Notes under the pieces: model-generated
Told to the model about the DNA's origin: nothing
Database searches by the model: none
The model's input: the letters and a program-made list of their open reading frames with translations, nothing else
Part shown: in pieces, positions 49,693 through 53,670 of the stretch
Layout of the letters: each line of letters begins with the position of its first letter
Position numbering within the stretch: position 1 is the stretch's first letter
Assembly: GCF_009812035.1 (NCBI RefSeq)
Contig: NZ_VZIZ01000006.1
Span: forward strand, 1-64,000
Length of the DNA: 64,000 bases
Direction: 5' to 3'
Source: Psychrobacter nivimaris
GTDB lineage: Bacteria > Pseudomonadota > Gammaproteobacteria > Pseudomonadales > Moraxellaceae
Made by a program: the position numbers and the translations under genes

Positions 49693-49796
49693 GTTGCTAT
49701 GTTGCTATGTTGCTATGTTGCTATGTTGCTATGTTGCTATGTTGCTATGTTGCTATGTTGCTATGTTGCTATGTTGCTATGTTGCTATGTTGCTAG
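49693..49796. repeat. Tandem octanucleotide repeat, 12 copies of GTTGCTAT plus one variant
   Basis: Twelve perfect copies of GTTGCTAT (49693-49788) followed by GTTGCTAG (49789-49796). Perfect short tandem repeats of this length change copy number by polymerase slippage. It is intergenic, 195 bp before mcrB and 166 bp before the divergent DUF4442 gene. Confidence 0.97.
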
Positions 49797-49865
49797 GTTA
49801 TGTCATTAATTTAGATCACCACTTAAAGTAGTCTAGGTATCTTATATGCCAGCGTCATTTGGACA

Positions 49866-49991: not shown

Positions 49992-51509
49992 ATGTCTGTT
50001 TTAAACCTGTTTTCAATGCCGCTGGATAACGTTATGCCTGATATGTCTACTCATGAACCGACCAATATTATTTATACGGGCGTTGCTGGTACAGGTAAAA
50101 CCTATAGATTACTGCAAATCGCGAAGCAATATACCGACTATCTATCCAAGACTGAAAATGAAGATTTATTAGAGCAGCTGCTGCAAGGTCTAAGCTGGCG
50201 CGAAGTATTATGTTTGGTATTTTTAGATTTACGTGCTGAACAACAGGATTTGTTAAAGGTACGAGAAATTATTGATCATCCTTTTTTTATGACGAAGGCT
50301 GCTCAGAACTCACGTGATAAAAATCTAGATAGCACAGCTTGGTTAGAGTTACGTAGACATAGCCCTACGAATTCTCAAACAGTCAGTTTTGATAACCGTG
50401 CTAGCCAAGCTTATTTTGATAAAGACAATAGTGGATCATGGTATTTATTGCCAGAGAGTATGGTGCTACTAGAAGATTTATCGCAGCAATTAGCAGAGTT
50501 TCAGCAAGCACAGCGTGACAACCAAGCCCATCAAAATCAAAACATCGGTCAGCAACGTTTTAGTATGGTGAGCTTCCATCAAGCCTACGGTTATGAAGAG
50601 TTTGTAGAAGGTATACGTCCTGTCATGAGTGGCGCCACTCAAGCAAATAATAGCATATCTAATCAAAATCAAATGAGTTACGCGGTGCAAGATGGGGCGT
50701 TTTTAAAGCTATGCCAACGCGCCGCCCGTGACCCTCAGCAGCGTTATGCCATGCTGATTGATGAGATTAACCGTGCTAACGTGTCACGGGTGTTTGGTGA
50801 GCTTCTTAGTTTGATAGAGCCTGATAAACGAGCGGGCAAGCCGAATGCGATGACAGTGAATTTGGCGTATTCTGGGCATGCTTTTAGTGTTCCTGCCAAT
50901 GTCGATATTTATGCCACTATGAATACCCAAGACCATTCTTTAGCACCACTTGATATGGCATTACGCCGACGTTTTCGTTTCATTGACTGTCCACCGCAGC
51001 CTGATTTACTATCGACAATTTATGACAGCAATGACATTGATACTGGACTGTCTGACGGTTCAGAAGCAAGCGCGATAGATTTGAGTAAATTACTAACAGG
51101 CTTGAATAGACGTATCGTGCAGACACTGGGAATAGAAGCACAGTTGGGGCATGCGTTTTTGTTCACCGTCACTCAGTTAGAGCAATTACAAACAGCTCTC
51201 GTTGAACAAATTATTCCTCAATTGGCTCAAGCAGCTGGTGGCCAAATTACGGTGCTACAGTATATCTTTGGAGATGAGCAGCAACCGACGAGTAAGCAGT
51301 TCGTACAGGACAGTCAAGCATTGATGAATGACGAATTGTATAATCCGATGGGCAACCAAAACAATGCTTCCGCTGAACACCAAATATTTGCAGGGCAGGG
51401 TTCTTTTCTTGGTCAGTCTATGAATGTGAATAGTTATACTATCAATGCCGATTTGATTGCTAGGGATGGTGAGTTTAATAATGCTGCTATCTATCAGCGT
51501 TTGTACTAG
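49992..51509 (+). CDS. mcrB: McrB-like AAA+ NTPase of a modification-dependent restriction system
   Basis: The NTP-driven motor of an McrBC-type system, which translocates DNA and activates the McrC nuclease. Walker A is GVAGTGKT (30-37), the McrB family FHQAYGYEEFVEGIRP is at 195-210, Walker B MLIDEINRANVSRVFGELLSL is at 254-274, then ATMNTQDHS and RRRFRF. There is no N-terminal methyl-DNA-binding domain. Instead about 150 residues lie between Walker A and FHQ, including SWREVLCLVFLDL and STAWLELRRHSP. It has 505 aa and no obvious ribosome site. mcrC follows after 15 bp. Confidence 0.85.
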   Translation: MSVLNLFSMPLDNVMPDMSTHEPTNIIYTGVAGTGKTYRLLQIAKQYTDYLSKTENEDLLEQLLQGLSWREVLCLVFLDLRAEQQDLLKVREIIDHPFFMTKAAQNSRDKNLDSTAWLELRRHSPTNSQTVSFDNRASQAYFDKDNSGSWYLLPESMVLLEDLSQQLAEFQQAQRDNQAHQNQNIGQQRFSMVSFHQAYGYEEFVEGIRPVMSGATQANNSISNQNQMSYAVQDGAFLKLCQRAARDPQQRYAMLIDEINRANVSRVFGELLSLIEPDKRAGKPNAMTVNLAYSGHAFSVPANVDIYATMNTQDHSLAPLDMALRRRFRFIDCPPQPDLLSTIYDSNDIDTGLSDGSEASAIDLSKLLTGLNRRIVQTLGIEAQLGHAFLFTVTQLEQLQTALVEQIIPQLAQAAGGQITVLQYIFGDEQQPTSKQFVQDSQALMNDELYNPMGNQNNASAEHQIFAGQGSFLGQSMNVNSYTINADLIARDGEFNNAAIYQRLY

Positions 51510-51524
51510 CAGGATGACTGTTCA

Positions 51525-53045
51525 GTGATAACGAATAATCCATATTACGCCAAAGAGCACGCTATTAGGGCAAACAGTCGCCAGACTCGTATCCCTAACA
51601 GTAGTGTCGCTACCATGAATGTTATCACCGTGTTTGAGCATCAACGTTTGACCGTGCATGATTTTTTGCACGCGTCTGACTTCGATTGGCTAATGGCACA
51701 AGAGTTTGCAGTATTTACTATCAAGCGTAAGCAAGGGCAATGGCAGCTTAAGGTTGGGCACTATATTGGGATTATTCTCCTACCTAGTGGCATAACGCTT
51801 GAGATATTGCCAAAGCTAAATCAGTCTACTCAGAGCAATGATATCGTCCAGACCCGTCATTGGGTACAGGGTATGCTATCGGATTTAATTCATCTTGATG
51901 CGCATAACAATCGTAAGCTACCCAATACGAAAAATTTCGGTCAGTTTAGTTCCCAGTCCACTCCTTTACCGTTGAAAGTATTGCCTATATCAGATTGGCT
52001 GATTGAGCAGTTTTTGCAGCGTTTAATGGATTATCAACCAACCAAGCATTATCAGGCTCAGATTGAAAATCAGGCATCCTTGCAAGGTCGACTGCTCATC
52101 AAAGAGCAACTGCGTCACAATAGTATGCAACCGCATAAGTTCATCTGTGAAAGTAGCGTATTAAGTCACGACATGTTGGCCAATCGGCTGATTAAGAGAG
52201 CATTGGTTTACTTGATGCCTTTATTGCCCCAGTTTATTTCTTCAAAGCTGTTACAGCTATGGCAGCAGGTGTCTACGCTAAACAACCGCGAAATGCAGCA
52301 GATAGCGTTAATATATACTCAAGCAAAGCGTCAGCTAGACATTCAACCACTCCAAAAGCAAAAACTGCATGCCGCGCAGCAGTTAGTAGACTTGGCATAC
52401 TGGTTATTGAAACAGACGATAGCTGCGACAGGTAACGGTATTGATCCAAATAGACAAAATTGCTCTCAGCTAAGATTGTGTTTATTGATTGATATGAATC
52501 AAGCTTTTGAGCAATGGGCAAGTCAGCGTATCGCATCTGTATTTCAGCAGATTAGTAGCAATTATCGTCCTTTTTACCAAACCCAAAGTGTCTGGCTTAA
52601 CGATGCTGAGGGACTAGCATGCTTATCTATACGGCCTGATTTGCTGATATTTGAAATCGTCTCCGATGATTGTCAAAACCAGAACGATATAGTACCTAAT
52701 CAAACTAAAGCCAAAAACAAAACCAAAGGTTGCTACAGTCATGTCATCGATATTAAGTGGAAGTATTTACCGCATGCCGCTGCGATTAGTGCGAGCGACG
52801 CTTATCAATTGACCAGCTATGCACAAGCTTACTTGGCGGGGCAGGTCTGGTTGGTTTACCCAGTGCTAGGTAATGATAGGCAACCAGTAGCGCTCAAGCA
52901 GCAATCACATTATAGTAATAATGATAGCAGTAGCGATGATATTAAAAACAATGGATCAATTGATGCCCATTTATGGTTAATGCCGTTTGATGTTTTGACA
53001 GGCACACTTAACGGTGAAGTACTGCCACATTTGGACAAAGCTTAA
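51525..53045 (+). CDS. mcrC: McrC-like nuclease subunit of the restriction system
   Basis: The predicted endonuclease partner of the McrB-like motor. The N-terminal part is the McrC beta-barrel-like region (FAVFTIKRKQGQWQLKVGHYIGII, LPSGITLEILPKL). The C-terminal half carries the PD-(D/E)xK nuclease core: RPDLLIFE with D372, then VIDIKWKYL with D409 and K411. At 506 aa it is longer than E. coli McrC (348) because of helical spacers in the middle. The GTG start at 51525 gives a 15-bp gap to mcrB; an ATG at 51615 is an alternative. Confidence 0.83.
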   Translation: MITNNPYYAKEHAIRANSRQTRIPNSSVATMNVITVFEHQRLTVHDFLHASDFDWLMAQEFAVFTIKRKQGQWQLKVGHYIGIILLPSGITLEILPKLNQSTQSNDIVQTRHWVQGMLSDLIHLDAHNNRKLPNTKNFGQFSSQSTPLPLKVLPISDWLIEQFLQRLMDYQPTKHYQAQIENQASLQGRLLIKEQLRHNSMQPHKFICESSVLSHDMLANRLIKRALVYLMPLLPQFISSKLLQLWQQVSTLNNREMQQIALIYTQAKRQLDIQPLQKQKLHAAQQLVDLAYWLLKQTIAATGNGIDPNRQNCSQLRLCLLIDMNQAFEQWASQRIASVFQQISSNYRPFYQTQSVWLNDAEGLACLSIRPDLLIFEIVSDDCQNQNDIVPNQTKAKNKTKGCYSHVIDIKWKYLPHAAAISASDAYQLTSYAQAYLAGQVWLVYPVLGNDRQPVALKQQSHYSNNDSSSDDIKNNGSIDAHLWLMPFDVLTGTLNGEVLPHLDKA

Positions 53046-53294: not shown

Positions 53295-53371
<77 letters not shown>

Positions 53372-53382
53372 TCTATTTTAAG

Positions 53383-53402
53383 AGCCTTACAGGCTTTTTT
53401 TT
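53383..53402 (+). terminator. Terminator after tRNA-Pro
   Basis: AGCCT-TAC-AGGCT followed by a run of T, 12 bp past the CCA end. It may reduce but not abolish read-through to the next tRNAs. Confidence 0.7.
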
Positions 53403-53476
53403 ATGTATAACGGTTTAGTTTCTGATATAGTAAAATATATCGTAAAGTAAACTTAGTATATAAAAGTCCTCTAAGA

Positions 53477-53553
53477 GCGCCTGTAGCTCAGCTGGATAGA
53501 GCATCTCCCTTCTAAGGAGGTGGCCGCAGGTTCGAATCCTGCCAGGCGCACCA
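53477..53553 (+). tRNA. tRNA-Arg (anticodon TCT)
   Basis: Acceptor stem GCGCCTG/CAGGCGC, anticodon loop CTTCTAA with TCT, T loop GGTTCGAATCC and encoded CCA. Reads AGA codons. Confidence 0.96.
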
Positions 53554-53593
53554 TTTAGCCTGCAAATCTTGCCTATTCTTTGGCAATAGTTAT

Positions 53594-53670
53594 GGCGGTT
53601 GTAGCTCAGTTGGTAGAGCCCCGGGTTGTGATCTCGGTTGTCGTGGGTTCGAGTCCCATCAGTCGCCCCA
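53594..53670 (+). tRNA. tRNA-His (anticodon GTG)
   Basis: Anticodon loop TTGTGAT with GTG. The extra 5' G (53594) opposite C73 is the hallmark of tRNA-His. The acceptor stem includes two G-T wobbles. CCA is encoded. Confidence 0.95.

Follow-up and report, generated by a model that had tools for sequence, protein, structure and literature searches.

A reader-less McrBC pair with a winged-helix-like insert in its GTPase motor is carried by every sampled Psychrobacter species

McrBC systems are usually described as a patchy, modification-dependent form of defence, one that bacteria commonly acquire and lose again as protection against phages. We analyzed an McrBC pair in a 64,000-nucleotide stretch of the Psychrobacter nivimaris genome (the window; positions 1 to 64,000 of contig NZ_VZIZ01000006.1, assembly GCF_009812035.1), in which an McrB-type GTPase subunit of 505 amino acids (49992..51509) is followed on the same forward strand by an McrC nuclease subunit (51525..53045). 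All McrB and McrC features given below lie on that strand. Within McrB, Walker A starts at residue 30 (residues 30-37, 50079..50102), the FHQ-EEF motif at residue 195 (residues 195-205, 50574..50606) and Walker B, with D257-E258, at about residue 256 (mapped to residues 255-261, 50754..50774), and the NxxD signature, as defined in section 7 of PMC11090510, reads N311-T-Q-D314 (50922..50933). With Walker A, Walker B and NxxD all present, the protein is an McrB-type AAA GTPase; its signature is NxxD and not the NxD of the coiled-coil McrBs, which places it outside the CoCoNuT systems. Matches to the NCBIfam models of E. coli-type McrB and McrC fell far below the cut-offs, and the McrB equivalog cut-off was not reached. 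We also considered that this might be a short form accompanying a full-length McrB, as McrB-S does in E. coli, and rejected this because the genome has a single McrB match.

A sequence-only reading of this locus had claimed that McrB is without an N-terminal reader domain, and this was borne out: Walker A begins at residue 30, and Pfam found no recognisable base-modification reader domain in McrB or in the insert described here. Walker A and FHQ are 165 residues apart, compared with 31 in E. coli K-12 McrB (L055), and the Pfam AAA_5 match starts only at residue 187. Between the helix that follows Walker A and the next strand lies a winged-helix-like insert, approximately residues 66-153 (50187..50450), supported by AlphaFold2 modelling, fold comparison and the insert profile A5; in the predicted structure a long helix (residues 161-182, 50472..50537) then returns to the AAA core.

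Modelled alone with AlphaFold2, residues 54-184 gave a mean predicted local distance difference test score (pLDDT) of 95.4 and a predicted template modelling score (pTM) of 0.89, in agreement with the claim of the same reading that a compact module sits inside the AAA core. Its further suggestion of a winged-helix-like module also agrees with the predicted topology, in which helices precede a two-strand wing in winged-helix order. In the fold comparison the best VIA rows were mostly winged-helix proteins by title, and the match to solved structures was consistent and weak. A search with the whole McrB model returned only AAA proteins in its top rows and was therefore uninformative about the insert. 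A Pfam scan (E up to 10) of a 111-residue insert segment and 16 homologous segments found no recognised winged-helix or reader family and, in any of the 17, no match to HARE-HTH; the hits that were listed look like chance matches. Mrr_N (PF14338), which had been proposed for comparison, gave no hmmscan match in these 17 members and no sequence-profile link when A5 was aligned with 14 Mrr_N proteins (hhalign Prob 1.7 over 18 columns), and we discarded it as an identity for the insert. The net charge of the insert is near zero. Conserved residues are the aromatics W69, F142 and W150, which are probably buried, and the polar T115, S128, R136 and K144.

The partner gene encodes McrC (PF10117, E 3.2e-33) in a frame of 506 amino acids when read from its GTG; because seven relatives have frames that open near Met31 of this one, the ATG at 51615 is the probable start. 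The nuclease core had been read as intact, and indeed D372 (52638..52640), D409 and K411 of the D409-I-K411 motif (52749..52757), and K413 do not vary across the 24 genus orthologues compared. McrC, with its PD-(D/E)xK core, adjoins McrB in 50 of the 50 family loci fetched. We considered McrC as the reader and rejected it, since apart from loops and an uncertain extension at its N terminus no extra domain was seen in it.

From named genomes we took 80 McrB loci, the best among the matches listed, to which all counts out of 80 refer. The spacing between Walker A and FHQ was bimodal in these relatives, at 137-165 residues in 37 and 24-108 residues in 40 (three were unscored), which indicates that the insert is a discrete insertion. 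The 40 relatives with only 24-108 residues at this position exclude the alternative, raised in the sequence-only reading, that residues 60-185 are AAA elements common to all McrBs. Of the 80 loci, 36 had an insert-profile match in the McrB frame, and in the loci examined the profile matched no frame without an McrB core; two loci among the 37 with long spacers, L101 and L121, were missed by the profile and are similar by eye. The collected homologues that share the insert thus form a wide McrB subfamily spanning Pseudomonadota, Thermodesulfobacteriota, Bacteroidota, Bacillota, Cyanobacteriota, Bdellovibrionota, Spirochaetota, Chloroflexota, Planctomycetota and Ignavibacteriota, plus an archaeon. 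Within the family, any McrB match was found in 70 of 149 genomes searched, and 50 of the 51 best matches were taken, a broken copy (G009) being left out. In 49 of these rows, with frames of 430-561 amino acids, the start of the insert lies at residue 36-83, which leaves no room for an N-terminal reader; in the fiftieth (L050, genus g6) Walker A lies at residue 380.

Most insert-bearing McrBs of the named genomes have a long N-terminal region, with Walker A past residue 100 in 29 of the 36 named-genome loci. We scanned 32 N-terminal regions with Pfam (28 of those 29, three from plasmid records and one from the family), and found EVE in six, MrcB_N in one that has no EVE (L053), and a weak pilin match in one; the remaining scanned regions may hold readers that were not recognised. 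The coexistence of the insert with recognised readers in 7 of 32 relatives indicates that the insert does not depend on reader loss and did not arise as a replacement, contrary to the earlier proposal of a new architecture in which the insert takes the reader's place. Loss of the reader most likely occurred in the Moraxellaceae branch of this McrB subfamily. Reader-less forms also occur outside that branch, since L072 (Saprospiraceae), L101 (Kurthia) and L121 (a Clostridia bin) are without an N-terminal region; L101 and L121 are possibly independent cases. In both, Walker A is at residue 12 of a short Bacillota McrB, the insert is diverged, and the spacing is 142 and 137 residues, respectively. 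At the other extreme of size, a 1146-amino-acid McrB of an Enterococcus plasmid (L053:2808-6248) combines an MrcB_N reader with the winged-helix insert, and several hundred further residues with no assigned domain precede its Walker A.

These observations bear on the role of the insert within the motor. It could be purely structural, contacting McrC or a neighbouring subunit in the ring with no role on DNA, in which case targeting would be relaxed or would come from McrC. The coexistence with readers, the near-neutral charge and the probably buried aromatics are all consistent with such a role. Winged helices, however, often bind DNA, and the four conserved polar residues would need another explanation, so that we consider a purely structural insert rather unlikely.

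The pair was next placed in its genus. Among 96 Psychrobacter genomes, one per species and all at least 95% complete, exactly one whole-McrB match at E<=1e-60 was present in each (96/96), with identities of 46-100% and open frames of 471-567 amino acids; in six of these matches a single in-frame stop occurs, the open frames there being 475-503 amino acids long. The insert profile A5 likewise gave one match in each of the 96, in one genome (G190) only over model positions 5-71. With one copy in each species sampled, the pair has the appearance of a lasting component of the cell. This distribution is its strongest feature and lay beyond the sequence-only reading. The insert was also found in the neighbouring genera g7 (5 of 6 genomes) and g9 (4 of 4, one being the broken copy G009), and in 2 of 276 genomes sampled across the class, one of which is the window's own genome (thus 1 of 275 others). 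For comparison, E. coli K-12 mcrB was detected in 591 of 5426 E. coli genomes, a count that comes from megablast, which sees high identity only and misses divergent alleles, and so differs in method from the protein search used for Psychrobacter. A phage or plasmid origin was rejected: all 296 matching plasmid records were below 60% identity, with 5 covering 80% of the query, and none of the 20 phage records covered over 80%. The sample holds one genome per species and only nearly complete genomes, and an ordinary patchy defence gene might appear universal through such sampling. This is very improbable given presence in all 96 genomes across so wide a range of identities and at one locus in the 24 read (see below), and given that the methylase families searched in the same 96 genomes are patchy.

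Those methylases also bear on what the insert might recognise. A C5 methylase match was present in 41 of the 96 genomes carrying the pair, and 20 had a D12 methylase over cut-off (21 at E<=0.001), some of these being fragments; the window's own genome had no D12 or C5 methylase match, other methylase families not having been searched. One explanation of the pair is that the insert is itself a modification reader that has moved into the motor, so that this would be an ordinary modification-dependent restriction system. McrB retains no additional domain besides the insert, DpnI and HhiV4I use winged helices to read N6-methyladenine (PMC11037411), and the parts of that source consulted list NTD-wH-NTPase proteins (N-terminal domain, winged helix, NTPase) paired with McrC, with function uncharacterised; the lack of D12 and C5 matches in the own genome, within the families searched, is in keeping with such a reader. 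On the other hand, the insert accompanies EVE or MrcB_N in some relatives and has no sequence link to Mrr_N, and since part of the genus carries methylase genes as well as the pair, a broad reader of 5-methylcytosine or G6mATC, which would risk self-damage there, becomes less likely, while reading limited by context would still be possible. We regard a reader within the motor as a possible, if unlikely, explanation.

In each of 24 genus loci (20 kb each), the pair sits between the same borders. Upstream, a DUF4442 gene (PF14539; 48801..49526, reverse strand) adjoins McrB in 24 of 24 at a gap of 100-575 bp; downstream, the trio tRNA-Pro, tRNA-Arg and tRNA-His (53295..53670, forward strand) is kept in 24 of 24, with 120-410 bp between McrC and tRNA-Pro. 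A third operon gene was rejected for all 24, the gaps (at most 575, 139 and 410 bp) being too small for a gene of normal size. In the six g7 and g9 loci the pair is located elsewhere. In an unrooted tree of 66 McrBs the 25 genus rows grouped together (support 96/92), with g7 and then g9 as neighbours, and these 31 rows were set apart at 100/98. This grouping fits vertical descent and speaks against the idea that divergent members of the genus had acquired foreign alleles at this locus, which was rejected on that ground.

McrB and its insert are under purifying selection. The ratio of nonsynonymous to synonymous substitution rates (dN/dS) was 0.11 and 0.19 for McrB, and 0.02 and 0.08 for the insert, in two pairs with unsaturated dS; three further pairs were saturated. 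Among window genes found in every genus locus, McrB or McrC is nevertheless the least conserved, so that the pair was never lost in the sample yet is fast to diverge. Single copy in 96 species and a fixed site in the 24 loci read could also reflect domestication, in which the pair would have taken on a housekeeping task in chromosome processing, repair or division and given up defence. There is a precedent in PcdA, an McrB relative co-opted in S. aureus division (PMC10602043). Both proteins here, however, diverge fast relative to their neighbours and keep their nuclease and GTPase motifs, while PcdA, as the passages of PMC10602043 consulted describe it, has no McrC and degraded Walker motifs. 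We hold domestication to be less likely than defence, though it is a main rival.

On balance we find it somewhat probable that an old McrBC, having lost its reader, now serves Psychrobacter as a core, resident, DNA-targeting nuclease. In this scheme a winged-helix-like domain would have been grafted into the AAA core of an old NxxD-type McrB subfamily, and in the Psychrobacter ancestor the pair would have become fixed beside the tRNA cluster and not been lost in the sampled species since. By analogy with E. coli and Thermococcus gammatolerans McrBC (as described in parts of PMC7680126), McrB would form the usual GTP-driven hexamer with McrC at its centre. Each ring subunit would then carry one winged helix, and these, the only obvious candidates left in McrB for contact with DNA, may bring McrB to DNA, after which GTP hydrolysis would drive cutting by McrC. 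Foreign DNA of phages or plasmids could be recognised by the winged helix or by the ring itself, through base modification or DNA structure. As the locus has no room for a separate reader gene, the most likely function is attack on foreign DNA by a resident system that is always present. More tentatively, the winged-helix GTPase ring of this reader-less, genus-wide surveillance nuclease may sense DNA structure and not modification, in a role like that of core anti-plasmid systems or in chromosome maintenance. We class the pair as an McrBC variant and do not count it among proven modification-dependent (Type IV) restriction systems.

Compared with characterized systems, the pair shares with E. 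coli K-12 McrBC the GTPase family, an adjacent McrC with a PD-(D/E)xK core and the NxxD motif (E. coli motif as given in part of PMC7680126), but the E. coli protein carries a DUF3578 reader at its N terminus in addition to its short spacer. T. gammatolerans McrB (6ut3-6ut8) differs in having a YTH N-terminal domain and an FHQ only about 30 residues past Walker A (PMC7680126, in part). The McrBC census of Bell et al. 2024 (PMC11090510) reports insertions within the GTPase domain, as here, 'likely encoding specificity domains'; its text sections 6, 7 and 14 say nothing of the fold of this insert, of its occurrence alongside readers, of the loss of a reader or of fixation across a genus. The NTD-wH-NTPase proteins likewise combine a winged helix, an McrB-like NTPase and McrC, but are set apart by description, which lists an N-terminal domain, and the parts of PMC11037411 consulted do not give the position of the winged helix relative to the motor. 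PcdA is likewise an McrB-family protein fixed in a lineage and co-opted; it keeps EVE domains, whereas here the reader is absent and the catalytic motifs degraded in PcdA are kept (PMC10602043, in part). Inserts in McrB GTPase domains and wH-NTPases with McrC are therefore already known, and what appears new is a reader-less pair fixed genus-wide, no account of which was found in titles and abstract openings of the open-access literature, a search that does not prove absence in print.

The pair offers a natural case for asking what an McrBC motor recognises by itself, in a culturable environmental genus, and raises the question of how a restriction enzyme with no adjacent methylase gene becomes permanent. 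A domain search that sees only the later part of the motor, as with AAA_5 here, overlooks the insert.

About 190 bp upstream of mcrB, the 8-bp unit GTTGCTAT forms a tandem array of 13.4 copies (49693-49799). Regulation through this repeat was rejected, as the array was found in neither of the two orthologous loci scanned (L136, L138). Among the 80 relatives, eight (L087, L090, L091, L100, L106, L120, L129 and L131) instead have a long insertion between FHQ and Walker B, with spacings of 154-246 residues; in the four scanned with Pfam (L087, L090, L106 and L120), every match was to AAA or another P-loop family. No locus among the 77 scored exceeds a 120-residue cut-off at both sites, L124 (101 and 119) being borderline. 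Four further McrBs (L092, L098, L111 and L113), of 335-341 amino acids with neither N-terminal region nor insert, are minimal motors.
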